Part shown: in pieces, positions 1 through 31,707 of the stretch
Layout: each line of letters begins with the position of its first letter
How positions within the stretch are numbered: position 1 is the stretch's first letter
Virus record (IMG/VR): IMGVR_UViG_3300046836_000483
Span: 1-32,077 of that record
From: a virus
Strand: one strand, 5' to 3'
Length of the DNA: 32,077 bases
Notes under the pieces: model-generated
Databases searched by the model: none
The model's input: only the letters and a program-made list of their open reading frames with translations
Told to the model about the DNA's origin: nothing
Translations under genes and position numbers: made by a program

Positions 1-317
1 AGTGTTACCAGTGCGGCGTCCAGTTCGCCATGACCGAAGAGCATCAGCGGTATTTCCTGGCCAAGCGAGACAAGGCGACGTTCTACTGCCCGAACGGGCA
101 CAGCCAGTGCTACACCGGCCTGTCCGACAAGGAAAAGCTGGAGCAGGAGCGGGCGCGGCACCAGGAAACGCTGGCCCGTTTAAATGTCGCCGAAGCCAAG
201 CGCGTCCAGTTGGAGAAGCGGATCAAGCGCGGTGTCTGTCCCTGCTGCAAACGCTCGTTCACCGCACTGGCACGCCATATCAAGAGCAAGCATCCTGAGT
301 ATGCGGAGACGAAATGA
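1..317 (+). CDS. Zinc-finger protein, N-terminus outside window
   Basis: The reading frame is open from base 3 and its start lies upstream of the window; 104 residues are visible. It opens with CYQCG, followed by FYCPNGHSQCYTG, giving a CxxC plus CPNGH zinc-ribbon arrangement. A stretch rich in Lys, Glu and Arg follows and looks helical. Near the C-terminus GVCPCCKRSF and HIKSKHP form a C2H2-type finger. Small proteins with a CPNGH motif are common in phage early regions, but I know of no established function; nucleic-acid binding is an inference. The next gene starts inside its stop codon through an ATGA overlap, so the two are co-translated. An internal ATG at 30 would drop the first CxxC, which argues that the longer frame is the true one. 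Confidence 0.75.
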   Translation, partial: CYQCGVQFAMTEEHQRYFLAKRDKATFYCPNGHSQCYTGLSDKEKLEQERARHQETLARLNVAEAKRVQLEKRIKRGVCPCCKRSFTALARHIKSKHPEYAETK

Positions 318-592
318 GTGCCGCGCTTACCGCGCTTGACAATGTGGCGACACAAGTTCGGTGGCTGCGACTGGACGATCATCCGCGCATGAACGCTATC
401 GCCGATATGCTCGAATTTTTCAATAAGCGGTGCGAGAAATACGACGAATTGCTCTACGCGGTCGCGCGTAAGTATCCTGGCGAGACAAGGCATCAGACGG
501 CACTGCGCTACATCATGGAACGTGAGCAAGAACCGCATGGCGACACCGGAGCGAAAGCGGCGGAGATTGGCCCCCGACCACAGGGGAGGTAG
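314..592 (+). CDS. Hypothetical phage protein, 92 aa
   Basis: The ATG overlaps the TGA of the preceding zinc-finger gene (ATGA), a typical coupled start. The protein has an amphipathic helical first half with acidic and basic residues (HPRMNAIADMLEFF, then RCEKYDELLYAVARKYPGE) and a polar, disordered-looking C-terminus rich in Gly, Pro and Arg. I see no catalytic motif, signal peptide or membrane segment and do not recognise the family. The tight operon position, GC-rich codon use and helical composition support a real gene rather than a chance frame. A 117-base gap without a gene follows. Confidence 0.6.
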   Translation: MSAALTALDNVATQVRWLRLDDHPRMNAIADMLEFFNKRCEKYDELLYAVARKYPGETRHQTALRYIMEREQEPHGDTGAKAAEIGPRPQGR

Positions 593-709
593 AAACCGAG
601 CGGTGGACGTTCGATCTGCGCCACACGATGTAACCCAAACCCGATTCGGGTCGCGGTGGAGGCGGGTCAGTGGACGGGTTCGGTGATCGTTTAAACAGGA
701 GTAGCGGTG
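593..709 (+). other. Short intergenic region with a GTTTAAAC site
   Basis: I see no open frame with a ribosome site here. The stretch contains a small perfect inverted repeat (ACCCGA/TCGGGT near 640-655) and the palindrome GTTTAAAC at 689-696, directly upstream of the AGGAGT ribosome-binding site of the next gene. No convincing -35/-10 pair is visible. Confidence 0.4.
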
Positions 710-877
710 ATGAAATGGTTTTCGCGGTCCTGGTGGGAATACTTGCTGACAGGCTGCTCCGGCCCGCGCAATTTTTGGTGCCGGGTTCGCGGCCATCCCA
801 ACGGTCCGATTTTCTATATCAGCAGCGGCCAGGAACCGGACTGGCGCTGCAAGGACTGCGGAGAAAAAATCGGTTGA
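710..877 (+). CDS. Small Cys-rich, zinc-ribbon-like protein, 55 aa
   Basis: The ATG at 710 sits behind AGGAGT and ends at a TGA before a second GTTTAAAT/CAGGAGT segment. The N-terminus is aromatic (MKWFSRSWWEYLL). Cys residues occur at 16 and 24 and in a C-terminal WRCKDCGEKIG, whose CxxC plus the earlier CRVRGH could coordinate zinc. A longer overlapping frame (670-915) covers the same DNA, but it lacks a ribosome site and reads as a composition artefact. No function is assigned. The run of small zinc-binding proteins in this operon suggests nucleic-acid binding or host-takeover factors, which is inference only. Confidence 0.65.
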   Translation: MKWFSRSWWEYLLTGCSGPRNFWCRVRGHPNGPIFYISSGQEPDWRCKDCGEKIG

Positions 878-898
878 CGTTTAAATCAGGAGTGCCAA

Positions 899-1225: not shown

Positions 1226-1233
1226 GAGGTCCC

Positions 1234-2187: not shown

Positions 2188-2202
2188 GACCCGGAAATAC
2201 TA

Positions 2203-2228: not shown

Positions 2229-2249
2229 CGTTTAAACGACGGCTTGAGG

Positions 2250-3077
2250 CTATTTGCGGCGGCGCTGGAAGGCCAGACCGGCGACCAGCCCCGCGCCGAG
2301 CAGCGCGATCGGCAACGGTTCGGGTACGACACTGGCAACTCTCGGCTTGAAGGCCCATTCCTCGAAACCATCCTCGGCCAGATTGCCCGACAGCGTGCCG
2401 TACTGCACGGCAAAGACGATGCGCGAGTCGGGCACCAGCGGCGCGAACAGCGCGGTGGGCACCAGCAGGTTCATGTCGTAGCCCAGGCCGCTGCCGGCGA
2501 ACAGGTTGTAGTCGAGTTGCAGATCGTTGCCGACACCAAGGCGATACACCACCGTCAGGTTCGGGAACACATCGACATCGTCCAGCGAAGTGATGTTGGT
2601 GCTGTTCAGGTCGACCGGCGCGCCCGGCGTCGGCCCGGTCTGCCCGAAGATGGCGAGGCGATCGAGCGAGAGCAGGTTCTGCCCGTTGCCGTTCGGCTCG
2701 TTGATGTCGAGGAAGAACGAGTAGTAGTCGACCCCGCCGATGGTCGTGATGCCAAGATTACTCAACGACATGGTGTTGGTGAAGGTGTTGTTGTTGTCGC
2801 GCTTGTCGTTGAGCGGCAGCGTGTTCACGCTCGGGTCGTCGGTATTGACGCCCGATTCGATCCCGCCGTTGCCGCCGACTTGATCGCCGAGGAACGGATT
2901 GATTTCGCCGCTGCCGATGTTCGATAGGTTCGACGGGTTGGTGTAGAGCGCCGTGCCCCCGCTGGTATCGGAGGCAAAGGTACAGGTTAGGTTCTGCGAA
3001 CCGGCGAGGCTGCAAAACGTAGCCGACGCCGAGTTGGCGAGCAGCAACCCGAAAACCAGGACCAGTACCTTTTTCAT
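2250..3077 (-). CDS. Secreted PEP-CTERM sorting-domain protein (275 aa)
   Basis: A Sec signal peptide (MKKVLVLVFGLLLANSASA, cleavage after ASA) is followed by about 230 residues of Asn/Gly/Leu-rich, probably beta-rich ectodomain. The C-terminus is VVPEP, then a hydrophobic helix (LPIALLGAGLVAGLAF) and QRRRK, the three-part PEP-CTERM signal. In bacteria this signal is processed by exosortase (XrtA/EpsH) during export and is linked to exopolysaccharide and biofilm surfaces. The mid-region DINEPNGNGQNLLSLDRLAI resembles a segment shared by many bacterial PEP-CTERM proteins. The ATG follows TAGGAGGGGT and lies 10 bases after the upstream PEP-CTERM gene, so the two form one operon. No exosortase is in the window, so it must rely on the host. 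A phage origin is supported by flanking GTTTAAAC sites. Confidence 0.88.
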   Translation of the reverse strand: MKKVLVLVFGLLLANSASATFCSLAGSQNLTCTFASDTSGGTALYTNPSNLSNIGSGEINPFLGDQVGGNGGIESGVNTDDPSVNTLPLNDKRDNNNTFTNTMSLSNLGITTIGGVDYYSFFLDINEPNGNGQNLLSLDRLAIFGQTGPTPGAPVDLNSTNITSLDDVDVFPNLTVVYRLGVGNDLQLDYNLFAGSGLGYDMNLLVPTALFAPLVPDSRIVFAVQYGTLSGNLAEDGFEEWAFKPRVASVVPEPLPIALLGAGLVAGLAFQRRRK

Positions 3078-3087
3078 ACCCCTCCTA

Positions 3088-3732
3088 TTAGGCCCGTCGC
3101 CGGACCAAGGCCAGCGCGAGCAAGCTGATGCCGAACAGTAGCACCGATGCCGGCTCCGGTACGACTACCGGTGCGGCCGAGAACGTGCCGGACACCGAGG
3201 ATTGGAACGCGGCGATCGTGGTGCCGTCAACAGAAACCGGCGGGGCGACGTTGGCGAACGAGAACGACAGGCCACGCGGCAGACCCAATTCAGTGATGAC
3301 ATCGCTGGTAAAGGTCAGCGTGCCCGGCGGCATCGCGCCCGACAGGGTGAGCGAAGCGCCGCCGATAAAGCCGAAGGTCGCGCCGGTAAAGATGCCGGAC
3401 AGACAGTTACCTGCGCCGCACAGCGCGCTGGTGATCGAGAACGTGCCGGAAAACGGCTCGATAACGCCGAGCGGTCCGATCGTCGCCGGACCGGTACTGG
3501 TCGCGTCGAGATTGAGTAGGGCGGCGAACGGTACCGCAGGACTTCCGGCCTCGATTTCCGTCACCGTAACGTCGATGTCGGTGCCGTCGATGACAGTCGT
3601 GGTGCCGTCGTCGGTGGCGACGATCGTATTGCCGCGCAGGACTTGGCCGAAGGTCAGGATTACGTCGGCGCGAGCGGGTAGAGCGAGCGCGGTAGCGAAC
3701 AGGGCGAGAGCGAGTAGTCGAAGCGTTTTCAT
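3088..3732 (-). CDS. Secreted PEP-CTERM sorting-domain protein (214 aa)
   Basis: The chosen start is the ATG at 3732, behind GAGGGGACCACC. It gives a clean signal peptide (MKTLRLLALALFATALALPA, cleavage after ARA); a longer start at 3777 would put 15 polar residues in front. The mature part is Thr/Gly/Ala-rich and beta-strand-like, with one Cys pair around residues 118-123 (CGAGNC). The C-terminus has VVPEPAS, a hydrophobic helix (VLLFGISLLALALV) and RRRA, a canonical PEP-CTERM signal. It is first in a two-gene operon with the 275-aa PEP-CTERM protein; the pair share architecture but little obvious ectodomain sequence. It has its own candidate promoter overlapping the terminator at 3790-3822. 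Possible roles are remodelling the host surface or matrix, or excluding other phages; the function is unknown. Confidence 0.88.
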   Translation of the reverse strand: MKTLRLLALALFATALALPARADVILTFGQVLRGNTIVATDDGTTTVIDGTDIDVTVTEIEAGSPAVPFAALLNLDATSTGPATIGPLGVIEPFSGTFSITSALCGAGNCLSGIFTGATFGFIGGASLTLSGAMPPGTLTFTSDVITELGLPRGLSFSFANVAPPVSVDGTTIAAFQSSVSGTFSAAPVVVPEPASVLLFGISLLALALVRRRA

Positions 3733-3775
3733 GTGGTGGTCCCCTCTGATTGAGTGCTGCCCTCGACTACTAAGC

Positions 3776-3802
3776 AATATAGGGACCAGAAAAAAGCGGC
3801 AA
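3776..3802 (-). promoter_or_regulatory. Candidate promoter of the PEP-CTERM operon
   Basis: On the minus strand a TATATT -10 box (3776-3781) lies 15 bases from TTGCCG (3797-3802), a weak -35 at short spacing. The bases around the -10 (GGTCCC-TATATT-GC) nearly repeat those of the strong plus-strand promoter at 6067-6095 (GGTCCCC-TATATT-GC). An inverted pair TGGTCCC (3737-3743) / GGGACCA (3782-3788) brackets the start region and could be an operator. The -35 sits inside the terminator stem. Confidence 0.5.
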
Positions 3803-4212: not shown

Positions 4213-4278
4213 GGACTCTCCTATGGGTTGGGGTTTAAACGACGCTGCCAGCGCCGACGCAGATGATACAACGCGGCG
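4213..4278 (-). other. Leader of the proline-rich gene with a GTTTAAAC site
   Basis: This short spacer on the minus strand carries GTTTAAAC at 4233-4240 and the GGAGAG ribosome site of the proline-rich gene. No clear promoter or terminator is visible. Confidence 0.4.
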
Positions 4279-6282: not shown

Positions 6283-6284
6283 CG

Positions 6285-6905
6285 ATGCTGGACAGCGAAC
6301 TGTTGAACACGGCCGGCGACCTGCTGCGCGACAACCCTTGGGGTCAGGGCGGTGGTTATTTCCACGCCCGCAAAGGTCTTTGCGCGCTCGACTTCATCGC
6401 TGTCGTGCAGGGCGGCGCATCGTGGAGTGACGCGCTCCCGCCGCAGCGGCTGGTCCAGGTTTGTGCCGACTGGTGTTTAAACAACATCCCGGAGCACTAT
6501 CGCCGGGGTTGGGACCTGTATGGCCGGGATTGGGTCTACGCCGCGAACGACTGGCACGTCACGGTCAACCCGATGACCAAGGAAAAGATGCTCGGCCTGT
6601 TCCGCTTCGCCGCGGTGCTGGCGCGGGTCGATGAAGTGACCGGTCACGTCTATCGCCACGTCAGCCCGCTGCCGATCGTGGATGAAGAGGGGTATGGCGA
6701 CGAGACCGACCATGGGGTGCTGTATGGCGTTGCGCTGACCGACCTGATCGACCTCGGTGAGCCGCCGGTCCCGCAGTTTGTCGAGGACGAGGACGAGCGG
6801 CAGGAGGCGGAACGCATCGAGTTGGACCCGATGATTCGGGAAGTGCATGATGAAGAGGACGATGATTGTCTGGTCCAGGAACGGCTGGTCCCCGCAACAA
6901 CTTAA
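6285..6905 (+). CDS. Hypothetical phage protein, DUF6197-like
   Basis: The start at 6285 is preferred because GGAAGG (6273-6278) is 6 bases upstream; an ATG at 6279 overlaps the preceding stop and is possible. The first about 110 residues, with ARKGLCALDFIAVVQGG, a middle helix, AANDWH and TKEKMLGLFRFAA, resemble the CALGAL...WND...T..ev..L pattern of DUF6197-type phage proteins; the resemblance is moderate. The C-terminal 60 residues are very acidic (EDEDERQEAE, HDEEDDD). The function is unknown. It contains an exact GTTTAAAC (6475-6482) read as Leu-Asn with a rare TTA codon. Confidence 0.65.
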   Translation: MLDSELLNTAGDLLRDNPWGQGGGYFHARKGLCALDFIAVVQGGASWSDALPPQRLVQVCADWCLNNIPEHYRRGWDLYGRDWVYAANDWHVTVNPMTKEKMLGLFRFAAVLARVDEVTGHVYRHVSPLPIVDEEGYGDETDHGVLYGVALTDLIDLGEPPVPQFVEDEDERQEAERIELDPMIREVHDEEDDDCLVQERLVPATT

Positions 6906-7366: not shown

Positions 7367-7655
7367 GGAGCCGCCGGTATGCGCCATTCGGTTCTGCTCG
7401 CGCCGGCCACATCCTACTCGCCCGGTCTATGGCGGTCCGGAGGATGTGATCTGGCTTTGCCGAAAGCATCGCCAGCAGGCGCGAGAATTAGCGTTTAAAC
7501 CAAGGGAGGCTTCACCGTGGCAGACAAGTCAAGGCTCTACCGCACGACCGGCGACCGATTGGTCCGTGCCCAGAACAGCGCGCAAGCGCGGCACTTCGTC
7601 TCGCGCAGCACGATCGTTGTCGCGGTCGCAACGCAAGACGACATCGTCGAGTTGA
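7332..7655 (+). CDS. Possible small zinc-binding protein (doubtful)
   Basis: The ATG at 7332 lies behind GGAG within the SSB-like tail. The central part VCAIRFCSRRPHP and VIWLCRKHRQQAREL carry CxxxxC plus CxxH, a pattern seen in small phage zinc proteins. The last about 45 residues overlap the next gene in another frame and look like out-of-frame sequence, so the annotated end is suspect. A competing 39-aa frame (7379-7498) has a well-spaced GGGAG but no motif. GTTTAAAC at 7493-7500 lies within it. If neither is real, this is a 150-base spacer. Confidence 0.35.
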   Translation: MTTTCPRISPSREPPVCAIRFCSRRPHPTRPVYGGPEDVIWLCRKHRQQARELAFKPREASPWQTSQGSTARPATDWSVPRTARKRGTSSRAARSLSRSQRKTTSSS

Positions 7656-9498: not shown

Positions 9499-9685
9499 CC
9501 GGTCGGGGTTGGAACGCCTGTTTAAACGCCACTGGATCAGCAAGTCCCGGTTCTGCCTACTGGTCGGGTGTTCGAGGATGTCACTCGACCGGTGGCTGGA
9601 CGGGTCCGAGCCGCTTTCGGTGGCGATGACCAAGGCGGTCAACGACGTGGTCGAGACCGTTACCGCCGGGCACCGCGGGGCATAG
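9464..9685 (+). CDS. Small HTH-like protein, end of the early operon
   Basis: The ATG at 9464 overlaps the previous gene by 35 bases and has no strong ribosome site; a TTG near 9509 behind GGTCGGGG is an alternative start. The core KSRFCLLVGCSRMSLDRWL followed by SEPLSVAMTKAVNDVVETV reads like an HTH with a support helix, as in small Cro-like or excisionase-like proteins. It contains GTTTAAAC read as Phe-Lys. Its 3' end overlaps the endolysin gene on the opposite strand by 26 bases, marking a convergent operon boundary. Confidence 0.55.
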   Translation: MSAYLLSRPRLNRSGLERLFKRHWISKSRFCLLVGCSRMSLDRWLDGSEPLSVAMTKAVNDVVETVTAGHRGA

Positions 9686-10142
9686 GGATGTGGCTGATCG
9701 GCAGCAGCCGGTGACCCGACCCAAGAGCCGGGAGCGGTTCGTTTTCACCGCACTCCATCAGCGCCTGATCCACCCGCCGGCTCGCCCGGCTCCAGGCCCG
9801 CATTTCATCAGCCGAGGCTGGAAGCTGCCCCTGGTTGAGCAGGACCAGCAGGCGCGACCGTTTAAACGATCGCTCGCCGATCGCACACGCCACGTCGACC
9901 AGAGCGTCGAAAAGGTCTTGCGGCAGGCAGGTTTTGACCAGCCGATTTACAGCCACCTGCGCCCAGAGGGTGTCATCGCGCAGCAGCCGGTCGGCGGTAG
10001 CTTGGTCAATCCCGTCCAGCAGGTAGTCCTCATGTGGCTGGATAAAATGCCCGTAGCCGATTGACTGGCCGACCGCGTCCGGGTAGGGAACGAACGAGCA
10101 GGCTTCGGCGCGTTTCAGCAGGGCCAAGCCGGCGGCCGACAA
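9660..10142 (-). CDS. Endolysin, GH24 lysozyme (muramidase)
   Basis: The GH24 pattern is clear: LLKRAEACSFVPYPDAVG with catalytic-type Glu13 and Asp22 nine residues apart, then SIGYGHFI, DALVDVACAIG, FKRSRLLVLLNQGQ and RRVDQALM. It cleaves the glycan strands of peptidoglycan to release progeny. The active-site position usually filled by Thr appears as Ser27, with one residue fewer between it and Asp22. There is no signal peptide or signal-anchor, so a holin is needed. The start is uncertain: TTG at 10142 gives this length, with no good ribosome site; a more upstream non-ATG start overlapping the PurD-like stop is possible. It is the last gene of the late operon and converges on the plus-strand early operon. 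Confidence 0.88.
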   Translation of the reverse strand: MSAAGLALLKRAEACSFVPYPDAVGQSIGYGHFIQPHEDYLLDGIDQATADRLLRDDTLWAQVAVNRLVKTCLPQDLFDALVDVACAIGERSFKRSRLLVLLNQGQLPASADEMRAWSRASRRVDQALMECGENEPLPALGSGHRLLPISHIPMPRGARR

Positions 10143-10149: not shown

Positions 10150-11481
10150 TCAATACTCCCAGCCCTCGGCGAAGCCGGCCTCTTGCAGCTTGGGCAGTTC
10201 GCCCTTGAGCCGATCGCCGATGTCGGTGCGGTAGAGCAGGTTGTTCGGTACGCTCACGCTGTCGACCGCCTTGTAGGCGTCGTCCTTGGCCTCGCGGATG
10301 GTGGGCGCGCAGCCGGAGCAGATCATCAGGTAGTCGCCGGCCGAGACCATCAGCTTTTTCTCGACCACTTCATCACCCTCCATCGCCGGGCAGACGCCGT
10401 GCATCAGTTCAGCCGGATGCAGGTAATGGCGCAGCGGGTTGTCATCGTCCAGGCCGTAGACCGGGATGCCGCAGGTCTCGCGTTGGGTCAGTGTTGAGTA
10501 GGGAAAATCGGGAATGGCCAGAACGACGCCAACGGCCACGTCGAGGTTGGGTTGGAATTCGTCCCGACCGTCCAGCAGAGCCAGCATCCATTCCACAGGA
10601 TCGGGGTGTAGCACTTGTTGAATAAAGAACAAGGGCCAAGCGAGTCGGCAGGTGAATTCGAGCGGGCGGGGGAGTCCATCCTTGTCGATGATGACCGAGA
10701 CATCAATGAATCCGGTGTGGCCCATCTTGATCAAATCCCGCTCCATCGGCAGCAACACCTGCCGGGCCAGTTCGGAGTCGTTGGTGTAGCGTAACACCGT
10801 CCCCATTTCCCCGGTGTTCGGACCGAGGTCGTCATTCATCAGCTTCTTGTGCTCGAAGTTCTCGACCACATACTCGGCGAATCCCTCCGGCCCGAGCCAG
10901 CCGCCGACGGCCATTTCGATCCCCGGCACAAACTCCTGGAGCAGAAATTCCTTTTTCAGCTTGTTCAATTCATCCCACCGCCGCAGCATGAAGATCATGT
11001 CGGCCGGCGACTGGCTGACGTAGGACAGCGCCTTGTCGGCGTCCCCGGTCGGTTTGCTCACATACCGCGCCGGGTTAGTGAGGACGTACTTTTCGGCCTT
11101 GGCCTCGTCGGTGAAACACTCGTAGGGGATGATGTCGATGCCGTGCTTGTCGAACAAAGCCTGTCCGACACCGCGGTCCAGTTCCAACCGGGATGATTCG
11201 GCGCTCGGTGCGAACACCGGGAAGCCTCGACGTTTAAACACGTCCAGTTGTGGAATCCATCGCGCGTTGTCGGAGCAGATGATCAAGTCAGCCCACTCGG
11301 CGTGCTTGGGCCACTCGTCGAGCGTGATCTTCTCGATCAAGCCATCGCCGCCGCGGTGCGGCATACCGGTCAACTTCTCGATGTGCGGCACCAGCTTTGG
11401 GTAGTGTCCGGCCGCTTTCAACCGCAGGGCGAAGTCCAGCATCAGACCGCCCTGGTCGAGAATGATGACGTTGAGGCCCAT
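10150..11481 (-). CDS. PurD-like ATP-grasp ligase (GAR synthetase homologue)
   Basis: The ATG shares bases with the upstream stop (TGATG), giving 443 residues. The N-terminal domain, from MGLNVIILDQGG to FPVFAPSAESSRLELDRG, corresponds to the PurD N-domain. Next come KYVLTNPARYVSKPTGDADK and FLLQEFVPGIEMAVGGW (ATP-grasp), then FEHKKLMNDDLGPNTGEMG, close to the DHKRxxDGDxGPNTGGMG of PurD. GFIDVSVIIDKDGLPRPLEF fits the metal-binding strand, but the following CRLAWP replaces the usual NxRFGDPE. PurD joins glycine to phosphoribosylamine in purine synthesis. The altered metal loop and late-operon position suggest a changed substrate, perhaps amide-bond formation on a nucleotide or peptide; this is inference. 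It contains GTTTAAAC read as Phe-Lys-Arg. Confidence 0.8.
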   Translation of the reverse strand: MGLNVIILDQGGLMLDFALRLKAAGHYPKLVPHIEKLTGMPHRGGDGLIEKITLDEWPKHAEWADLIICSDNARWIPQLDVFKRRGFPVFAPSAESSRLELDRGVGQALFDKHGIDIIPYECFTDEAKAEKYVLTNPARYVSKPTGDADKALSYVSQSPADMIFMLRRWDELNKLKKEFLLQEFVPGIEMAVGGWLGPEGFAEYVVENFEHKKLMNDDLGPNTGEMGTVLRYTNDSELARQVLLPMERDLIKMGHTGFIDVSVIIDKDGLPRPLEFTCRLAWPLFFIQQVLHPDPVEWMLALLDGRDEFQPNLDVAVGVVLAIPDFPYSTLTQRETCGIPVYGLDDDNPLRHYLHPAELMHGVCPAMEGDEVVEKKLMVSAGDYLMICSGCAPTIREAKDDAYKAVDSVSVPNNLLYRTDIGDRLKGELPKLQEAGFAEGWEY

Positions 11482-11603: not shown

Positions 11604-14600
11604 TGGTTCTCCTTTTCCAGTTCGCGCTTGCGCTTGGCGCGCTCGATACGCAACCGAGTGCGGTGCGCCGCCGCCTCTTCATCCCGGCCGGTCGCCCTGG
11701 CCGTCTCGCGGGCCTTGGTCTCGGCTTGTTCCTCGGTCTTGCCGTAGATCGGGAAGCCGAAGAACCCGGCGATCCCCGGAATCGACCCCTGGGTGAACGC
11801 CTGCTGCCCGGTGATCGGGGTCAGCCCGGCGAGCGCGTGCCCCAGACGGCTGCCGGCGGTCTTGGGTTTGGCTCCCGGCTCGGTCGGTGGCGCGGTAGTG
11901 GTGATGGGCGGTGAACCTTTGGGCGACAGAAACTGCTTGTTCAGCCACTGCTCGGCGATTTCCTTCGGCACATAGCCCAACTTGTTCAGCGCCTGCTGCG
12001 ACGGGTTCATCAGCCAGTGGATCGGCTCCATAAAGTGCTTCGACAATTGCAGCTTGCGCCCATCGCCTAAGTCGACCATGGTCGGGTCCTCGTTCTCCCA
12101 GAAGTGGTGCCCCGAGTAATACTGATTCAACCCGTCCGCCATGACCGCATACATCAGCGCCGACCGGACCACATAACCCTGGTGCAGCGCGCTGATTTCG
12201 CGCCGCGATACGCCCGGAATCGCTTTCACCATGGCGCGCGTGGTCGCCACGGTCCAGTCGGGGGCGAGCATCATGATCTGCATGAATTGCCGGCCCTTGG
12301 CGGAGGTCACCGCCAGCGCCAGATCGCGCCCGAGTTTGTTCTGCACGCCGTCGGCAATGCGGAACCAGTCGAGACCGCCGAAGATGTCGTTGGTCGCGGA
12401 CGCCGCGATCTTGGCCGCCTCGGCCCGACTCAAGTTGGACGATCGCTTGCCGAGCACCTTGTCCGCGCCGCGGATAAACCCGCCCGGCCGGGACGAATCC
12501 TTCAACACCTTCTCGAACGAGGCCATCGCGGTGGCGACCTTGAAGGTCGGATGCACGACGCTCCACAGGAACGTGTCGAGCGCCTTGCCGATCATGCGCG
12601 CACCCTTGACCGGCGCACCGATCACCGGGAATTTTTCCTCGATCAGCTTCAACGTGTTGGTGAACGGCGTGACATCGCCCTCCATCGGCCGCTCGACCAC
12701 GTTTAAACCGCCCCGCACCAGTTCATCCAGCACGTCGCCCGCGCGGCCGTGCTTGAGCGTGCGGTAGGCGTTGCCGTTGAGCACGTTGACCCACCCGCGC
12801 GCACTGGTGCCCAACATGGCGTCGGTCAGGCTCTTGACGTGGAACAGCGAGTAGGAAAAGATGCCGCGCTTGGCCGCGATCGACAGGCCATAGGCCAGTT
12901 TCACCGCGGCGTTGGTCGAGGGCGCGTTGAACAGGTTTTCCATGACCGGTGCGATGTCCTCATGGACCTTGTAGCCGCGCATCTGCGGGTGATTGATGAC
13001 GACGTACTCCTTGGGCGCTTTCTTGATCGCCTGATCGCGGATGTCCTTGGCCAGCGCGCCGCCGCCCTGCCACTGCCGGTCGACGATCGCCGCCGCCTGC
13101 ACCGTGGTCTTGACCTGGGCGTCGGGGGTGTCGCGGATGATCAACGCGCGTTGGAACGGTGTGCCGTCGGCACCGATGAACACGTCCGGATGCTTGGCCC
13201 GCTCCAGCGCGGCGACCAGATTCTTGTTGGCGATCGCGCGGCTGATGTTGTCGCCGTAGATTCGCACGATGTCGGCGATGTCCATGGTGGCCGGGATCAG
13301 CCCCTGCTTGATGCCCTCGGCGTAGTTCGGGATCACCCGCTCCATCGAGAACCGGCTGCGCGGTGACATCCCCGGCGAATTGTTGTTGCGCTTGCCCAGC
13401 GACTGCGTGAGGTTGCGCCAGAGCGAATCGTTCTTGTTTAAACCGGTCCACAGGTTCGTGACGTAGTTGTCCAGCAAATCTTCCGGCAGGATGCCGGCCT
13501 GCTGACCCTTCTCCCCGTAGGTCTCGAAAAAGTCGCGCACCGCGGCCACCACCTGCTGCGCTTCCGGCGACAGCGGTTTGTTGGTCGGCGTGCCCTGCAA
13601 TGCTCGGGTGATGTCCTCGCGGTCGGCTTTGCTGGTGACCAGGGTCTTGACCATTTCGGCGAAGCGGAAGTTGGCCAGTTCCGCGCCCTTGATCGACCCG
13701 CTCCAGGCGTCGGTGAATTCGGTCATGCGATAGCGGGTGTCTTTCAGGTGTTGGGCCACCTGCCCGATACTGCGCACCCCGCCGCGCAGCACCTTGCCGG
13801 CCGCGAGCACCCCGCCGGTGGCGAGCGCACCCCAGATCGCATCCTTCGGGTCCTTGGTGTAGATCGCTGCGCCCACCGCGCCCAGGCTGATCAGGCCCAA
13901 CGCGCGCAGGATCACCGGGTCGACCGATCCACGCTCCAGACCCCCGATCTTGTTGTCGAGCACCGCATCGCGCACCGCCGCGTCGGCCGCGTCCGCGCCC
14001 TTCTCGGCCTTGACCGCCTGATGCACTTCCTGGGCCGTCGGCTCGCCCGACAACGCAGTGTCCTTGGGGTCGACGCCGGCCCGCTGCACCGTCTCGTTCG
14101 CCTTCTCGACCGTGCGCACCGGGGTCCCCGGATCACCCTTGATCGCGTCCAACCCTTTCTTGACCTGCTCCAGCGTTCCCGACGTGATGTGGTGCCCGCC
14201 GTCGCTGGCGTGCCACTCCCCGTCGATACCGCGGATCAGGCTGTAGCCGCGATAGGCCATCCGATCCTTGACCGGCGGCAGCGCCGACTTGTCCTTGACC
14301 TTGGCCGCCTTGGTCTTACCCGGCTTGGCTGCCGGCGCGGCCGGCGCTTCCGGCGGCGGCTCTCCCGGCGCACCCGCTTCCGCCGGCTTCGCTGCCTCGG
14401 CCGGCTTCGCCTTACCCTTCTTGCCTTTGGTCTTGACCGGCGGCTCTTCCGGCTTCGGCGTCTCGGCCGGCTTCTCGCCCATCGCCGGCATTTCCTCGGT
14501 CCGCTTGGCCCCGACCAGTTCGCCGGCCTCGTCGCGGGTGATGACCTTGCCCTCGTTGGTCTTGAACAGGTTGATCGTGTCGCCCGCTTCCTGATTCAAC

Positions 14601-15850
14601 ACCGGGGTCTTGCCGTCCGGGCGCAGCGGGACGCCATCGGCGACCGCCTTCTTGATCGCCTCGATGTGGGTGGTGCCCTCGTAGTCCTTGCCGCCAAAGC
14701 GGACCACCGCGGCCACGATCGGATTGGCCGGCTCGACCGGCTTCAACACCGACGAGACTTCTTTGGCCACGTCCGGGTCGACCTTGATCGCCTCCAGGGC
14801 TTCCCGCAGCGCGTCGTCGATGCTATAGCCGGACGCGACCCGCGCCTCGACATCGGCCATCGCCGCCTTGACCAGTTCGGGCGAGGTCTCGATCTTGCCG
14901 TTCTTGAGGTTCCTGGCCACGGCATAGTCGATCGCCATGGCCACGCTGGTCTTGCCGGCCTGGGTCAGCATCCGGCCCGCGACGACCGGTGTGGTCGCCA
15001 TGATGGTGTCCATCGCGGTCTGGCTCGCGCTGGTGGTGCCCTTCTTGTTCAGTTGAGACAGGACACTTTCGCCGCCCGCCGCCGCGCCGATCTGGGCTGC
15101 CTCGGTCCCGACCTTGGCCGCACCCGCGGCGAGCCGGGTGGTCCGCGCCGACGCCTCCACGGTCTTGGCCACTCGCGCGGTAAACTGCGCCGCGCGCATC
15201 GGCAACAATTCCGGCGTGGTCAGCAATTCCGGATGCACGATAAAGCCGCGCGCCAGTTGGCCCATGAAGCCGCCGGGGTCGTCCACCGCCGACTTCTTGA
15301 TGCTGTTCCAGGTCTCCGCCATCGACATCGGCTTCTCTTGCGGCTTGGTCTCCTGGACGATTTCGTTTAAACGCCGCAGCTTCCAGTTCTCCATCCCGTT
15401 CAGCGATTCGCCGGCCGCGGTCCGCCGCGCCCGCTCGCGGTCCCACTCCCGGTTTTTCTGGAATTTGGCGTTGGCCTCGCGCACATCCTTGACCCGATCG
15501 GCCAGTTCGGACGGCAGACTTTCCTTGGCCAACCCCTCCAGCCCGCCCTCGGCGATCTTGCCCCAGAAATTGTCGAGTACCTTGTCGCGGGCGGCCAGCG
15601 CGTACTTCGCCCGCCCGATCAGGTCGGTCGGCGGCTTGTCCGGAGCGACATCTTCCCACCCATCCTTGTCCGGACCCTTGGGCGCAGCCGGCGCAGCGGT
15701 CTTGCCCTCCGGCGGAGCCATGTAGGGGATGCCCTCGGCGGTGGTCTTGATGCTCGACCCCTCCGGAGCATCCGGCGGCATCGGATCACCCGGCTGCCAG
15801 CCGCCGCCCTTGCCGGCCGGGGCTTCGCCGATCGTTTCCCACCCGCTCAT
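11600..15850 (-). CDS. Giant internal virion (ejection) protein, 1416 aa
   Basis: The ATG at 15850 overlaps the stop of the 451-aa protein (ATGA). It is the largest gene in the window and sits with three other putative ejection proteins after the tail hub. Residues about 1-80 are disordered; a helical domain with many Ala follows. Residues about 450-530 are a Pro/Ala/Lys-rich linker. A hydrophobic stretch around residues 650-690 (LGLISLGAVGAAIYT and WGALATGGVLAAG) could insert in a membrane. The C-terminal half is helical, with a membrane-prone segment and an EPIHWLMNPSQQALNKLGY motif typical of large phage internal proteins. It probably forms part of the DNA-translocation channel, like T7 gp16, though no lytic transglycosylase motif is visible. 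It carries three exact GTTTAAAC sites. Confidence 0.75.
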   Translation of the reverse strand: MSGWETIGEAPAGKGGGWQPGDPMPPDAPEGSSIKTTAEGIPYMAPPEGKTAAPAAPKGPDKDGWEDVAPDKPPTDLIGRAKYALAARDKVLDNFWGKIAEGGLEGLAKESLPSELADRVKDVREANAKFQKNREWDRERARRTAAGESLNGMENWKLRRLNEIVQETKPQEKPMSMAETWNSIKKSAVDDPGGFMGQLARGFIVHPELLTTPELLPMRAAQFTARVAKTVEASARTTRLAAGAAKVGTEAAQIGAAAGGESVLSQLNKKGTTSASQTAMDTIMATTPVVAGRMLTQAGKTSVAMAIDYAVARNLKNGKIETSPELVKAAMADVEARVASGYSIDDALREALEAIKVDPDVAKEVSSVLKPVEPANPIVAAVVRFGGKDYEGTTHIEAIKKAVADGVPLRPDGKTPVLNQEAGDTINLFKTNEGKVITRDEAGELVGAKRTEEMPAMGEKPAETPKPEEPPVKTKGKKGKAKPAEAAKPAEAGAPGEPPPEAPAAPAAKPGKTKAAKVKDKSALPPVKDRMAYRGYSLIRGIDGEWHASDGGHHITSGTLEQVKKGLDAIKGDPGTPVRTVEKANETVQRAGVDPKDTALSGEPTAQEVHQAVKAEKGADAADAAVRDAVLDNKIGGLERGSVDPVILRALGLISLGAVGAAIYTKDPKDAIWGALATGGVLAAGKVLRGGVRSIGQVAQHLKDTRYRMTEFTDAWSGSIKGAELANFRFAEMVKTLVTSKADREDITRALQGTPTNKPLSPEAQQVVAAVRDFFETYGEKGQQAGILPEDLLDNYVTNLWTGLNKNDSLWRNLTQSLGKRNNNSPGMSPRSRFSMERVIPNYAEGIKQGLIPATMDIADIVRIYGDNISRAIANKNLVAALERAKHPDVFIGADGTPFQRALIIRDTPDAQVKTTVQAAAIVDRQWQGGGALAKDIRDQAIKKAPKEYVVINHPQMRGYKVHEDIAPVMENLFNAPSTNAAVKLAYGLSIAAKRGIFSYSLFHVKSLTDAMLGTSARGWVNVLNGNAYRTLKHGRAGDVLDELVRGGLNVVERPMEGDVTPFTNTLKLIEEKFPVIGAPVKGARMIGKALDTFLWSVVHPTFKVATAMASFEKVLKDSSRPGGFIRGADKVLGKRSSNLSRAEAAKIAASATNDIFGGLDWFRIADGVQNKLGRDLALAVTSAKGRQFMQIMMLAPDWTVATTRAMVKAIPGVSRREISALHQGYVVRSALMYAVMADGLNQYYSGHHFWENEDPTMVDLGDGRKLQLSKHFMEPIHWLMNPSQQALNKLGYVPKEIAEQWLNKQFLSPKGSPPITTTAPPTEPGAKPKTAGSRLGHALAGLTPITGQQAFTQGSIPGIAGFFGFPIYGKTEEQAETKARETARATGRDEEAAAHRTRLRIERAKRKRELEKENQ

Positions 15851-18941: not shown

Positions 18942-21307
18942 CAGGATTCACCGTTGCTGTACTGCACTTCGAGGTAGCGCCATTGCAGCGGCCAAGCGTC
19001 CTGCCGGCCGAAATACCACGCCCGCCGCCGCGAGGCTCCCTGCCGGGTCAGGTTCGGTCGCGGCAGGGCTTCGTTGACGCTGCCGCGAAAGGTGATGTCG
19101 AGGTAATCGTTGTCGCGGGTATTGATCGAGGTCGACGTGTTGACCAGCGACGGCTGACAGACCAGCGTGACCCGGCCCCAGAATTTGTTGAACATGGTGC
19201 CGGCATCGAACGACTCGGTCTGCACCGCGGTCAGGAACGCATTGCCGAAGGGATCGGTAGCGTGCTGCGCGTCGATAAACTTCACGTTGTTGTCGCTCTG
19301 GTCGATCATGTAATTCTGCTGCTGACCAAAGCCGCTGGTGACATAGACCGGCGGGACCAATTGATTGAACTGCCAGAAGTACCACAGCCCGTTCTCGTAG
19401 GCATACGAGATATTCGGCCCGGAAAGGTTGGTCGACGACAGGACGTAGATCATGTGACCGCCCGCGGTCCAGGCCCAAGCGCAAAGCGTGGTCGGGTCCT
19501 GCGCCATCAGCCACAGGTCGATCGACTCGTTCGACACCGGCTGCGCAACCATACCGTTCAAGGTGTAGACGTGACGCTGCCCCTTCTCGGTCTGGCCCAC
19601 CCAGAACAAGGTGTTGTTCATGTTGACGATGGTGGACGCATTGACGCAGCCGACCCGCATATTGGCCGAAATGTAGGGCAGCAATTCGCTGGCTTCCGGC
19701 TGCGCGGCATCGTAGAAAAATTGCCCGGTCCACTGCCCGAACGCGACGATGTAGTTGAGGTACTTGGCCAGCGCGACTCCGGGATCGTCCTCGTAATCGG
19801 CGGTGATGAAATTGAGCGCCGGCCACTCCGTTGGCACATCCAGCGTGCAGTTGTGGATGTCCCCGCCCGGACTCATGACGTGGAGGAAGGCGTCGAGCGT
19901 GATCAGGCCGGGTACCGTCACCGCCGGGTAATTCGGGTCCGCCACTTTGGTCAAGGCCGCGCCGGACAAGACCCACATATTCGACTGATTCTTGAGGACG
20001 ATCTTGGTCCCGTTGATGTAGGTCGTAAACTGGTAGGACTGACCGGGTGTGGTCGGATTGAGGGCGTAGGTATTGCTGATCTGGGTGTTTAAATTGCCGC
20101 GCCAGACTTCGTTATAGAGCGTTGCCCCACTCTGTCCCGCCATGACCCAGAGGGTTTCGTACCGGTACGGACTGACCGTGTATGGCACACGGAAGGCGAC
20201 CGCGCTCATGCCGGCTTTGCCGCTCCACCCCGGCACAGTCGTCACCAGGGTCCAGGTGATGCCGTCGATGCTGTTGTAGACGTTGGCATCCGCCGTCAGG
20301 CTGACCGTGCCACCGAGCAGCCACATCTTGCCGGCATAGATCGCACCCGCCATCTGGCTGCGGCCTTGAGCAAACGCCGAAGCGGTCCTTTGCACCCAAT
20401 TCAGGCCGTCATACGAGAACCAGCAATCGTTCTTTGCTATCCCGCCAGCGTCGGCACCGCCGATTACCCACAAGCCGGCGAATTCCGGGAACGGCTGAAA
20501 GAAAAAGCAGGAGAAGTTGGTGCGGGCACCCCAGGGCGACGTTGCCGCAATCCGGGTCCAGTTCATGCCGTCGGACGAGAACCAGACATCACTTAACAAA
20601 TTGACCGAGATTTCCGATTGATTGCCGCCCAGAATGTAGATGCCGTTGTTGCCGGCAACGCAACCAAAGTCCCGGCGCGGTGCCCAGGTGGTCGATCCTT
20701 GCTGTAGCTGTGTCCAGTTGGTACCGTCCGGCGACGACCACACATCATTCATGCACGTCAGCGACGTGGCAGTGCGTAGGTTTCCCCCGATCAGGAACAG
20801 CTTGTTGTTGAACACCACCAAGCGGTGCCCGATCCGCGAGCCGAACGGCGCGGCCCCGGCATTAACCGCCCAGCTAACCCCGTCCTGGCTCTGTGTCACA
20901 TCCGGATAGCCAACCCCGCCCGCGCCGCCGCCACCGCCGATGATGAAGATTCGATCCTGGAACACCACCGCGGGCGCGAACGAGCGCGTGCCCCATTGCG
21001 GCACCGCCGATTGGGTGAACGCCGCGCCGTTGGTGCCGCCGAAATTGCTTCCGGTCGATCGGGTCAGGACATCGTTGCTGACGACGTAGACGAAACCGTT
21101 GAAGTAGAAGATGCCCTGCTGCGGCAGGTTGCCGACGGTGACCCCGGAGTTTTCATAACCAGCCCGCCGCCGGACATACGGGCCTTGCGCGTCCTTCTGC
21201 ACAACGCCGTTCAGAATGAAGGCATCGTTGGGGATAGAATTGTTGTTGGGGTTCCCGTCCCGACACGAAAACGTGTTGGCGACCGAGACCCGGACGGATT
21301 CGGTCAT
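18941..21307 (-). CDS. P22 gp10-like tail hub/nozzle with inserted kelch propeller
   Basis: The ATG overlaps the gp4-like stop (ATGA). Residues 1-100 (AFILNGVVQKDAQGPYVRRR; GIFYFNGFVYVVSND) and about 410-788 (for example VALAKYLNYIVAFGQWTGQF; GCVNASTIVNMNNTLFWVGQ; DLWLMAQDPTTLCAW) resemble gp10-type DNA-stabilisation/tail-hub proteins. Between them, about residues 105-405 hold six kelch-like units: FIIGG, FLIGG, YILGG, WVIGG, WLLGG and WVMAG at about 50-residue spacing, each with a DGxxW or DVW strand (SSPDGTNW, SSDGMNW, SYDGLNW, SIDGITW). Without this insertion the length, about 490, is close to that of P22 gp10 (472). The hub closes the channel and anchors fibres. The insertion probably adds a six-bladed outward-facing propeller for binding. 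Confidence 0.75.
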   Translation of the reverse strand: MTESVRVSVANTFSCRDGNPNNNSIPNDAFILNGVVQKDAQGPYVRRRAGYENSGVTVGNLPQQGIFYFNGFVYVVSNDVLTRSTGSNFGGTNGAAFTQSAVPQWGTRSFAPAVVFQDRIFIIGGGGGAGGVGYPDVTQSQDGVSWAVNAGAAPFGSRIGHRLVVFNNKLFLIGGNLRTATSLTCMNDVWSSPDGTNWTQLQQGSTTWAPRRDFGCVAGNNGIYILGGNQSEISVNLLSDVWFSSDGMNWTRIAATSPWGARTNFSCFFFQPFPEFAGLWVIGGADAGGIAKNDCWFSYDGLNWVQRTASAFAQGRSQMAGAIYAGKMWLLGGTVSLTADANVYNSIDGITWTLVTTVPGWSGKAGMSAVAFRVPYTVSPYRYETLWVMAGQSGATLYNEVWRGNLNTQISNTYALNPTTPGQSYQFTTYINGTKIVLKNQSNMWVLSGAALTKVADPNYPAVTVPGLITLDAFLHVMSPGGDIHNCTLDVPTEWPALNFITADYEDDPGVALAKYLNYIVAFGQWTGQFFYDAAQPEASELLPYISANMRVGCVNASTIVNMNNTLFWVGQTEKGQRHVYTLNGMVAQPVSNESIDLWLMAQDPTTLCAWAWTAGGHMIYVLSSTNLSGPNISYAYENGLWYFWQFNQLVPPVYVTSGFGQQQNYMIDQSDNNVKFIDAQHATDPFGNAFLTAVQTESFDAGTMFNKFWGRVTLVCQPSLVNTSTSINTRDNDYLDITFRGSVNEALPRPNLTRQGASRRRAWYFGRQDAWPLQWRYLEVQYSNGES

Positions 21308-22205: not shown

Positions 22206-22960
22206 AGGTACAACGGGATACGATACAGTCCCGGCGCACCCGCGCCCGACCCGATCAAGCCGAACGACAGGTAGCGGTCTGGTGTTGCTGGCAGCGGACT
22301 CGCGCCACCGGCTGTTGCGGCCTGGAACGTCGCTGCCGCGATCTGTAACCCTTGTGAATCGAGCAACTTCATGATCATCCCGGTTGAACCCCAAAACTCC
22401 ATCCCGCTTGCGTTGTGCCGGATGAACGACGAGTTGCCACTATTGTTGTTGAAGATGATGCCCTGGGTATCCTTGACGGTGAGGTTGCCCTGTTGACTCA
22501 CAATGTCATTTTTTGCCGTGATGCTGCTGGAACCCGTTATCGCCCCGGTAATCGCCGCGCCGCCGCTGGTCACGGTCAGCCCACCCGTAATCGTGGCACC
22601 CCCGGCGAGGACGTTTAAACCCCCGGTATTGATGGTCAGGTTGCCGCCAAACACCCCTCCGGCAGCGAACGTCGCCAGCTTGGTGACGACATTGATCGCC
22701 AACAGGTCGACCAGACCATTGGCCAGGGTCAGGCTTTTGGTCGCACTGCGGTAGACCAGTTGCGCCTGGGTCGTGTCCGACATGACCAGCGGCACATCGT
22801 CGGAAAAGCTGATCGTCGGCGGATTGACGATCGAAATGAACGACGACGACTCGCTGGTGCCGATACCGGCAACGGCCTTACCCAACCGATACAGCCAATC
22901 CCGAGTGTTGGTCGACTCCAGCGGACCCGGCGGCATCGGGTCGGTGAATTGCTGGCCCAT
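22202..22960 (-). CDS. Tail-fibre-like protein, 252 aa
   Basis: The ATG directly follows the stop of the 42-aa membrane gene. The N-terminus MGQQFTDPMPPGPLESTNTR resembles attachment tails of phage fibres. The centre is built of short Gly/Thr/Ile-rich strands (GGLNVLAGGATITGGLTVTS; GGAAITGAITGSSSITA), as in trimeric beta-helical or triple-spiral fibre shafts. The last about 70 residues are less repetitive and may be the tip. It has no peptidase or lyase motif. It lies next to the adaptor and the tailspike genes. GTTTAAAC at 22613-22620 is read as Leu-Asn. Confidence 0.7.
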   Translation of the reverse strand: MGQQFTDPMPPGPLESTNTRDWLYRLGKAVAGIGTSESSSFISIVNPPTISFSDDVPLVMSDTTQAQLVYRSATKSLTLANGLVDLLAINVVTKLATFAAGGVFGGNLTINTGGLNVLAGGATITGGLTVTSGGAAITGAITGSSSITAKNDIVSQQGNLTVKDTQGIIFNNNSGNSSFIRHNASGMEFWGSTGMIMKLLDSQGLQIAAATFQAATAGGASPLPATPDRYLSFGLIGSGAGAPGLYRIPLYL

Positions 22961-27952: not shown

Positions 27953-27958
27953 GCCTCC

Positions 27959-27995: not shown

Positions 27996-28034
27996 CAGGT
28001 CCGCACCGGGGAGGCCGGCGCGGGTGGCAGAGTG

Positions 28035-28964: not shown

Positions 28965-28973
28965 GGTGGTCTC

Positions 28974-29582: not shown

Positions 29583-29594
29583 GTGGGGTCGCTC

Positions 29595-30287
29595 CTATCG
29601 AGTAGAGGGTCGCAGGGTTTGCACGTCGTATCTGATTTTGGGCAGGGCTGATTGGGTTGGTGCTGATTCGGCCGTGTAGCGGCCGTCGCCGGATTGACGG
29701 TTGGCGTCACCGGCTCCGAGCGCATCGGCGATAAGCTGCACGCGGGCGGCGTATTCCGCTTGGTGCGCTTGGTGGATGTGCATCGGCTTTTTCATGAGGT
29801 ACGCATACATCGGATGGCCGCGCACGTTGCTGCCGACATACTTGCGCACGCGCAGCCCAGGATCGTTGTTACTGTCGCTGGCTTCGTACAGGTCGCCGAC
29901 GATTTCATCGCGGTCGACAAAGATGAATCCGGACGACTGCGCCATCGACAGGCGCGGGCCGTCCTCGTTGAACCAGTGCGGATGCCAATTCAGAAAAAAA
30001 CTCTCCGGGTCGCGGAAGGCGATTTCCATCTTGGTGGTGAACCCGTCCAGCATATTGCGCGGGATGGGCTTACGCTCGTCCAGCGACGTGTTCGGGTACG
30101 CCTGCTCGGCAGCGACTTCCTTCAATTCCTCGACCGGACCCGCAGCGGCTGGCTCGGGCTGGATCGGCACATCGTCGATCGAGGCATAGCCGGCAGTGGC
30201 CGCGGCAGCATCCTTGTCGGTCTGGGTGAAGCGCGGGATCGGCTCGCTCGGCTTGTCGCCGGTATTGACCTTGATGTCTTTGGCCAC
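29595..30287 (-). CDS. Hypothetical head-region protein, 230 aa
   Basis: GTG at 30287 is chosen: it lies 2 bases after the scaffold stop with GGAG just upstream, and gives a start at VAKDIKVNTGDKPSEP; an ATG at 30317 would overlap the scaffold. The N-terminal 90 residues are disordered and acidic (ASIDDVPIQPEPAAAGPVEE). The C-terminal part has KPIPRNMLDGFTTKMEIAF, ESFFLNWHPHWFNEDG, SGFIFVDRDEIVGD and MKKPMHIHQAHQAEYA, an alpha/beta fold seen in podovirus proteins between scaffold and capsid. The function is unknown; it may be a minor head protein. Confidence 0.65.
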   Translation of the reverse strand: MAKDIKVNTGDKPSEPIPRFTQTDKDAAAATAGYASIDDVPIQPEPAAAGPVEELKEVAAEQAYPNTSLDERKPIPRNMLDGFTTKMEIAFRDPESFFLNWHPHWFNEDGPRLSMAQSSGFIFVDRDEIVGDLYEASDSNNDPGLRVRKYVGSNVRGHPMYAYLMKKPMHIHQAHQAEYAARVQLIADALGAGDANRQSGDGRYTAESAPTQSALPKIRYDVQTLRPSTR

Positions 30288-30289
30288 GC

Positions 30290-31243
30290 TTAGTCTCCGA
30301 AACACTCGGGGCCGCACTCGGCCAGGAATTCGGCTCGGCTCATACCGATCTTCTTGCCGTTCTTGGCGAATTCGCGCTGGTATTCAGGCAAAAGGTCCGC
30401 GAAGGTATGCGAACCGCCAGCGCCGTTGCCACCAGAAGGCGAACCGCCACCCTCGACCATCGCGTGCCGTCTTGTCGTGAAGTGTTCGGGATACAGGCGG
30501 CGCATCCGGTCGTTGACGCGGGCAATGAAGGCTTCGCCGACATCCCGATTTCCGGCCATGCGCAAGGCGATGCCCTCGGCGTGCCAATCCTCTTCCGCCC
30601 TTTTGTCGGCGAGGAACGGGTACTTTTGCACGTTGGCGTTCCATTGCGCTTGCGTCTTGGGGTCGGGGGTTTCTGCCCTGGCCGGCGTGGTCGGCGTGTT
30701 CGGAGCCGGCTTGGCATTGAGTTCGATCAGCTTGATGTCGATGTCATTGACCGCGTCCATGTCCTGATTTTCCAGCGCGGTCTTGCGCTGGTTCTTCAGG
30801 TTGGCCAACTCGAACTTGCGCTGCGCGTCGGCCCGGCGCTGCTTGTCCTCCTGGTACTCCTTTTGCCCCTCGCGCAACTCGGCCAGTTGGCGCTTTAAGT
30901 CCTCGTTCTCGGCTCGGGTCTTTTCCTCCCGGCTCTTGATGATCGGCAGGACTTCCTTGGCCCGGCGGACATAGGTGCCGGCATCAACCCAACGCGCCTT
31001 GTCGCCGCGGAAAGCGGCCCGCGGAATCCAGCCCATGTCGCGCGCTTCCGCCTCGATCGCGGCGGTGTCCGGCCGGGACTGCACAACCGGTTCGTCACCG
31101 CCGCCGCCGTCGAGGCCGCTGTCCGCGTGCTGCCCACCCTCTCCTGGCAGATCACCCGGTTCGAGGTCGGCGTCGAAGTTCGGCGGCCGGCTCGGATCGT
31201 CGGGCATCTGGTCGGTAGGTTGGTGCTCACTCATGGGCGGCAT
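30290..31243 (-). CDS. Scaffolding protein, 317 aa
   Basis: The ATG at 31243 follows AAGGGTGTAACT. Residues 1-60 are acidic, Gly/Pro/Asp-rich and disordered. EAEARDMGWIPRAAFRGDKA followed by RWVDAGTYVRRAKEVLPIIK is the signature of podovirus scaffolds (A..mGW.p...w.Gd...WvdA..f..r...vlPil). A long charged coiled coil (REEKTRAENEDLKRQLAELR, then EYQEDKQRRADAQRKFELA) follows. A helical C-terminus (ARVNDRMRRLYPEHF; LLPEYQREFAKNGKKIG; SRAEFLAECG) probably binds capsid. It guides procapsid assembly and leaves before or during packaging. Confidence 0.85.
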   Translation of the reverse strand: MPPMSEHQPTDQMPDDPSRPPNFDADLEPGDLPGEGGQHADSGLDGGGGDEPVVQSRPDTAAIEAEARDMGWIPRAAFRGDKARWVDAGTYVRRAKEVLPIIKSREEKTRAENEDLKRQLAELREGQKEYQEDKQRRADAQRKFELANLKNQRKTALENQDMDAVNDIDIKLIELNAKPAPNTPTTPARAETPDPKTQAQWNANVQKYPFLADKRAEEDWHAEGIALRMAGNRDVGEAFIARVNDRMRRLYPEHFTTRRHAMVEGGGSPSGGNGAGGSHTFADLLPEYQREFAKNGKKIGMSRAEFLAECGPECFGD

Positions 31244-31254
31244 AGTTACACCCT

Positions 31255-31707
31255 TTACTCTTTGATGTCAAAAACATGGCTGCTGCTCATGACCGCGGTC
31301 GGTCGGTTCACCGGGGCGCGATCGCGCTTGGCCAGCAAGTCCTCGGGCCGGATCAGCCGGTACTCTTTGCCGTCGTCGCCCGTTTGCAGGGACCCCGCAT
31401 ACTTGGCGAACACCACCAGATCGCCTTCGTTTAAACAGCGCGCCCGCGGATGTAGCTGTGCGGTATTGCCGAAGGCAACCACCTGCGCGGTCTGGATCGA
31501 CAACGCCTCCTTGCGCGCGGTCTCGTCGACCACGATGATCCCGCCGGAGGTTTTCTTTTCCAGCGTGAGCAGGGCGACCAGGATCAGGTCGCCGATCGGC
31601 TCCAGGCCGGAGTCATTGGCGACGGAACGGACTGTATTCAGCACCGTCGTCCGGTCCCTCGTCATCGCTTCCATCTTCGCTGCCGCTTCCTCGAACTGCC
31701 CCATCAC
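31255..31707 (-). CDS. GroES-like (Cpn10) co-chaperonin
   Basis: Residues about 35-128 follow the Cpn10 fold: GLEPIGDLILVALLTLEKKT (first strands), SGGIIVVDE (end of the GroEL-binding mobile loop with the hydrophobic IIV tripeptide), QTAQVVAFGN, LNEGDLVVFAKYAG (strands 5-6) and DGKEYRLIRPEDLLAK (the C-terminal Ylimre-DILA strand). Cpn10 forms a heptameric lid on host GroEL; phage versions such as T4 gp31 widen the cage for the capsid protein. An extra 30 residues precede the core and 20 follow it. The start is uncertain: ATG at 31707 overlaps the upstream gene by 95 bases; in-frame ATGs at 31674 or 31665 reduce that. GTTTAAAC at 31429-31436 encodes Leu-Asn in the CLNEGDLVVF motif. Position next to scaffold and capsid supports a role in capsid folding. 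Confidence 0.85.
   Translation of the reverse strand: MMGQFEEAAAKMEAMTRDRTTVLNTVRSVANDSGLEPIGDLILVALLTLEKKTSGGIIVVDETARKEALSIQTAQVVAFGNTAQLHPRARCLNEGDLVVFAKYAGSLQTGDDGKEYRLIRPEDLLAKRDRAPVNRPTAVMSSSHVFDIKE

Follow-up and report, generated by a model that had tools for sequence, protein, structure and literature searches.

The stretch analysed here (the window) is 32,077 nucleotides of viral DNA, positions 1 to 32,077 of the incomplete linear virus record IMGVR_UViG_3300046836_000483. It is strewn with exact copies of the palindromic octamer GTTTAAAC. Across phages, this motif, in its two letter variants GTTTAAAC and GTTTACAC, is associated with the gene of a SprT/SPRTN-like protein of the family phrog_6361. 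On balance, the recognition site of this protein is probably GTTTAAAC, whose place is taken by GTTTACAC in actinophages and in some other phages.

The octamer in the window

A reading of the sequence alone had counted 13 exact and three variant copies among 17 TTTAAA cores and had estimated by hand that chance would give about 0.1 copies. Our recount was identical, Markov models of order 1 to 3 give an expectation of 0.05-0.25 (an enrichment of 50-fold or more), and dinucleotide shuffles contain 0.18 copies on average and 2 at most. Indeed, GTTTAAAC ranks first among the 8-mers of the window by over-representation. The TTTAAA cores themselves exceed expectation (17 versus 1.45); 13 belong to full GTTTAAAC, 3 to GTTTAAAT and 1 to CTTTAAAG. 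Since one-mismatch copies in the window number only four, the octamer is sharply defined, and these figures agree with the initial view that the full octamer, not AT-richness, is selected. The sites are as follows (window coordinates, strand given as "."):

689..696,., GTTTAAAC, with an AGGAG...ATG leader directly after
2230..2237,., GTTTAAAC, exact match
4233..4240,., GTTTAAAC, exact match
6475..6482,., GTTTAAAC, within the gene 6189-6905, codon phase 1, Leu-Asn
7493..7500,., GTTTAAAC, upstream of the GTG start at 7517
9520..9527,., GTTTAAAC, within 9464-9685, phase 2, Phe-Lys
9860..9867,., GTTTAAAC, within the minus-strand gene 9660-10142, Phe-Lys
11232..11239,., GTTTAAAC, within 10150-11682, Phe-Lys
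12701..12708,., GTTTAAAC, within 11600-15850, Leu-Asn
13436..13443,., GTTTAAAC, within 11600-15850, Leu-Asn
15365..15372,., GTTTAAAC, within 11600-15850, Leu-Asn
22613..22620,., GTTTAAAC, within 22202-22960, Leu-Asn
31429..31436,., GTTTAAAC, within the GroES-like gene 31255-31707, Leu-Asn; retained in contig L005 (position 3290)
178..185,., GTTTAAAT, likely a weak or decayed site
879..886,., GTTTAAAT, just upstream of the GTG start at 899, likely a weak or decayed site
20087..20094,., GTTTAAAT, likely a weak or decayed site
8285,., CTTTAAAG, the single TTTAAA core without the flanks of GTTTAAAC or GTTTAAAT

Most copies of GTTTAAAC are intragenic, in the two codon phases already proposed (Leu-Asn and Phe-Lys), and further copies are intergenic. 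The use of the TTA codon was likewise seen, since the window genes listed contain 19 TTA codons, 8 of which fall within the motif. The sites had been described as irregularly spaced and sparse in the structural region. The structural half is indeed thin in GTTTAAAC, but the irregularity did not hold: in the first 16 kb, a cut picked post hoc, spacing is evener than chance (coefficient of variation, CV, 0.40 versus 0.88, P 0.004). A contig of 98.5% identity, L005, adds 2.6 kb with the portal gene, part of the terminase gene and one more GTTTAAAC.

The phrog_6361 gene in motif-rich phages

A scan of viral contigs for paired GTTTAAAC returned, among the matches listed, many unrelated contigs of 31-58% GC with enrichment far above that of the window, for instance L126 (28 copies over 14 kb) and L024 (19 copies over 12 kb). 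Isolated phages are also concerned: Methylophilales phage Venkman has 34 copies, every TTTAAA is part of GTTTAAAC in Dinoroseobacter phage R26L (20/20) and in Pseudanabaena phage Pan1 (16/16), and four proteobacterial phages with sprT carry 4-6 copies each. All 19 aligned sites are retained between L126 and L098, which gives modest support given the high background identity. Tight pairs or triplets of GTTTAAAC, 19-46 bp apart and possibly marking a promoter or an origin, were noticed at L126 1994-2083, L024 4130-4209 and L048 8142-8168. A second repeat, CTATAACTCGCTTATA-like, was observed in the Nanhaivirus genomes L140, L179 and L180 (R26L) and in L183 (Pan1), one copy lying beside GTTTAAAC upstream of or near sprT.

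The SprT-like protein is the one family common to motif-rich contigs of differing backbones. When 24 diverse genomes with sprT were compared, it was the only family present in 24/24, the next real family reaching 8/24; two larger families in this table overlap sprT itself and were read as its shadow frames. The protein belongs to phrog_6361, annotated in PHROG as "unknown function" and present in 163 isolate phage records. It is near the Pfam SprT-like family PF10263, whose cut-off is exceeded in Venkman and L362 and missed in others.

Because the first loci had been chosen by motif, loci were fetched again by the protein alone. In a first sample of viral loci found by SprT similarity, 80 of 80 were enriched, with 839 GTTTAAAC versus 14.8 expected, and eight control palindromes together gave 85 copies. 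A second profile brought 74 new viral loci holding 337 GTTTAAAC versus 11.7 and 97 GTTTACAC versus 17.1 expected, and 69 of them were significant. The same holds for 24 SprT loci in bacterial genomes (60 GTTTAAAC versus 2.1, 16 GTTTACAC versus 3.2). On the other hand, 45 control loci fetched via another window protein contained 6 GTTTAAAC versus 3.9 expected, and just one of the 45 carries sprT.

Other candidate carriers of the trait were rejected. Major-capsid relatives of the window hold 0-3 copies, and the control set of them lacks the motif (0 GTTTAAAC versus 2.9 expected). The sequence-only reading had taken absence from close relatives as evidence against a signal; such absence is formally found in the capsid kin, but the trait tracks the SprT-like gene and not the capsid lineage. 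The terminase is common to only part of the carriers. A LexA-like family of 86 amino acids, common in motif-rich contigs, was discarded since its isolate match, Ssp-JY39, has no copy. The HU-like, helix-turn-helix (HTH) and other window genes are matched rarely or not at all in the other motif-rich phages; for the HU-like gene, earlier named as one candidate cognate, none of those tested has a counterpart.

The eight-base core is exact across lineages, and almost no one-mismatch copies occur in the window and L126. This exactness would fit a restriction-modification or methylation target or the site of a host factor, and GTTTAAAC is the recognition sequence of PmeI. However, a restriction target is expected to be depleted, not enriched. 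No methyltransferase is common to the 24 genomes, so that the methylation target suggested initially found no enzyme shared by motif-rich genomes. Moreover, the flanks are lineage-specific, up to an 18-bp palindrome TTTCCGTTTAAACGGAAA in G026, and the one motif occurs in phages of very different hosts, at 32-66% GC. Such an origin therefore appears highly improbable.

A search for phrog_6361 in the window record and in L005 was negative; the genome is incomplete beside the terminase. In motif-rich kin, sprT lies near the terminase, that is, where the window genome is missing. A contig overlapping the missing part was sought via the terminase and the first gene of the window, and none was found. 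The phage of the window probably encodes phrog_6361 in the unsequenced stretch between the terminase and window base 1.

Ribbon, protease domain and the variant octamer

The SprT-like protein has an SPRTN-type metalloprotease domain and, C-terminal to it, a zinc ribbon with the pattern KxQxTRMLKxxCxxCGYTxRxTxKWxxxGxPxCP. In the AlphaFold2 model (pLDDT, the model's confidence score, 91.7), the ribbon lies in a C-terminal part that is set apart from the protease domain. The best matches of this model among solved folds are human SPRTN (6mdw, Z 8.2 over 102 residues, a level that the tool calls common) and yeast Wss1 (Z 7.5). A sequence search of solved structures gave nothing significant, and with Foldseek alone no match reached an E value of 0.001.

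Among 101 family members, 97 have the active-site motif HExxH. Two of the remainder have HQxxH, the form read in L368 and L369, and the last two have a frameshift in the stretch that was matched. In L024, which has 19 sites, HExxH is degenerate or lost and the ribbon is intact. Conversely, the protein of Bordetella phage FP1 keeps HEMIH and has lost the ribbon, and this genome has neither GTTTAAAC nor GTTTACAC. In these single cases, the motif goes with the ribbon rather than with the active site.

The actinophages with sprT (Arthrobacter phage Yang, Microbacterium phage GardenState and Streptomyces phage Intolerant) and phage 4A have 0-1 GTTTAAAC. Their most over-represented 8-mer is GTTTACAC, a one-letter variant of GTTTAAAC, with 20, 16, 40 and 13 copies, respectively, versus at most 0.4 expected. 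At the ribbon position corresponding to L230 residue 156, in a column picked post hoc, 38 of the 47 proteins from GTTTAAAC genomes have Ala or Cys, and 7 of the 8 from GTTTACAC genomes have Val. The tree, which is poorly resolved, needs several changes of the GTTTACAC label. Two further observations were made: the GardenState record has at 41978-44070 (L197-L198) four near-identical cassettes with one GTTTACAC each, and in the Streptomyces genomes L373 and L374 the octamers AATACTAG/AGTATTTG are strongly over-represented beside a sprT-like gene.

Taken with the association of gene and motif, these data make direct binding of the octamer by the SprT-like protein quite likely, and the ribbon would be the part that most likely reads it.

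Placement of the sites and their possible role

In Intolerant, the asymmetric GTTTACAC occurs 19 times on the plus and 21 times on the minus strand, though nearly all genes are on the plus strand. An RNA-level signal was rejected since both strands are used. Over whole genomes, spacing is evener than chance in R26L (CV 0.36), Yang (0.44) and Intolerant (0.54), with P <2e-4 in each of the three; it is also evener than chance in Pan1 (P 0.003) and L106 (P 0.0007). Venkman and G023, by contrast, have clustered sites. A signal at the DNA level is indicated by the use of both strands, by the several codon phases and by the even spacing seen in several phages. The DNA-level selection, recognition site and undescribed genome-wide signal of the sequence-only reading are thus supported by the strands, the phases and the many unrelated phages; in the open-access literature, with most subscription journals outside its scope, neither GTTTAAAC nor GTTTACAC was found described as a signal of phages.

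Even whole-genome spacing and orientation-free sites are also what one could expect if the sites had a part in replicating, recombining, condensing or packaging phage DNA and the SprT-like protein acted as a loading or architectural factor. Against this, site density varies between about 1 per 0.4 kb and 1 per 10 kb, most sites of Venkman, G027 and the window fall in one genome part, and no replication or packaging gene is common to the 24 genomes. A role in genome maintenance is therefore improbable, though less so than a restriction target.

The foremost alternative is an operator system in which transcription would be regulated by the SprT-like protein or by a partner: sites in promoters and leaders would stop transcription, and the protease domain would be a remnant or act on a repressor. 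Several placements fit this idea. In the four proteobacterial phages, one site lies 18-20 bp upstream of the sprT start, just past a -10-like box. In Venkman, 14 of 34 sites are within 60 bp of a start codon (4.2 expected; 6 of 13 in R26L), several of them in the spacer between Shine-Dalgarno sequence and ATG, and 31 of 34 are in the first 17 kb. The paired and triple sites, as well as the retention of the ribbon in proteases with a dead motif, are of the same kind. However, the two-strand distribution in Intolerant, the intragenic position of most window sites and the even spacing in R26L, Yang and Intolerant do not suit operators. As a universal promoter element of sprT the site was rejected, only 6 of 68 in the aquatic group having it within 100 bp upstream. 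In 16 of the 24 bacterial loci, sprT itself or the 100 bp upstream of it holds a site, versus about 4 loci estimated from the density of about 1 site per 5 kb. Many sprT genes, among them many of the aquatic group, have an intragenic site, in differing places and phases (HARLN, AFKLN, GHGKAFKR, LFKQ; RLH for GTTTACAC).

Two known phage systems were compared with these placements. The stoperators of cluster A mycobacteriophages (L5 repressor sites) comprise more than 20 short sites that are specific to the phage, lie scattered across the genome and are recognised by a single phage protein (PMC9283540), an arrangement that resembles the one proposed here. They are, however, asymmetric 13-bp sites that follow the direction of transcription and are recognised by an HTH repressor, whereas the present sites are 8 bp long, palindromic or in both orientations, often intragenic, and found in unrelated phages with a SPRTN-like ribbon protein. 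Indeed, their orientation does not follow transcription, as seen in Intolerant and in the palindromic GTTTAAAC, and no HTH immunity repressor is common to the 24 genomes. The start-associated sequences of cluster K are short repeats of unknown function next to start codons (PMC3203893), and some present sites also adjoin starts. In contrast to these one-directional sequences 3-7 bp before starts, typical of one cluster, most sites here are not start-linked, as the counts in Venkman and R26L and the mostly intragenic window sites show. Overall, we regard operators as unlikely, yet clearly less so than a maintenance role.

We return to the SprT-like protein as a possible protease addressed to its own genome. 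Chi sites and DNA uptake sequences are genome-wide short motifs with one reader protein; they differ from the present case in motif, reader and carrier, and the present motif has no fixed orientation. With sites throughout the genome, many copies of the SprT-like protein could be loaded onto phage DNA, inside genes as well as outside them and on both strands. SPRTN cuts DNA-bound proteins and depends for this on a DNA-binding region immediately following the protease domain (PMC5128726). The phage protein shares with SPRTN and Wss1 the protease fold, HExxH and a predicted DNA-binding region directly after the protease domain. It differs from SPRTN, for which PMC5128726 mentions no sequence-specific site, in having a dedicated genomic octamer and in the ribbon as a distinct conserved module. 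By analogy, its protease domain might cut DNA-bound silencers, nucleoid proteins, roadblocks or defence proteins, so that the motif would mark "self" DNA for protein clearance, and a site in or before sprT might allow self-control. Such clearance is a tentative proposal. Equally tentative is the wider scheme, in which an 8-bp tag on the phages' own DNA docks a Spartan-like protease stripping host proteins, and tag and reader (GTTTAAAC with Ala/Cys, GTTTACAC with Val) co-evolve and move as one module between unrelated phages.

Several points weigh against the SprT-like protein as the reader. In addition to its absence from the window record and L005, phrog_6361 was not found in the motif-rich fragments L126, L098, L076, L106 and G026, all incomplete or of unknown completeness. 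It was not detected either in G031 (the contig of L069), which has 14 GTTTAAAC in 46.5 kb and could be a true exception. Conversely, Pseudomonas phage Epa43, compared at profile-match level only, matches phrog_6361 over nearly the whole profile and has neither GTTTAAAC nor GTTTACAC; a detectable family member is thus not sufficient. Five of the 74 loci of the second SprT set lack significant enrichment, and copies are few in certain SprT phages (4 each in ep3, Mano and Persinger). The palindromic octamer suggests a dimeric reader. Finally, the Ala/Cys-Val column was chosen after the fact and has exceptions on a weak tree, and the fold match is at a common level.

The window has other features of its own. 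Two minus-strand genes, at 2250-3077 and 3088-3777, encode secreted-type proteins with PEP-CTERM sorting motifs, which is unusual for a phage contig and hints at a PEP-CTERM host. Also on the minus strand are a GARS-type ATP-grasp protein (10150-11682), Kelch beta-propeller repeats fused to a head-closure Hc3-like region (18941-21307) and a phage GroES co-chaperonin (31255-31707). Several palindromes are strongly avoided, as if under restriction pressure: GGCGCC, TCGCGA, ATCGAT, CCCGGG and GGATCC each occur 0 times, versus 37, 22, 16, 14 and 13.5 expected.

Through this association, phrog_6361, a family of unknown function, gains a testable DNA target and a link to a genome-wide signal common to unrelated phages. 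Should the SprT-like protein be the true reader, the phages would have a metalloprotease that is directed by DNA sequence, for which the isolates R26L, Venkman, Yang and Intolerant are at hand.

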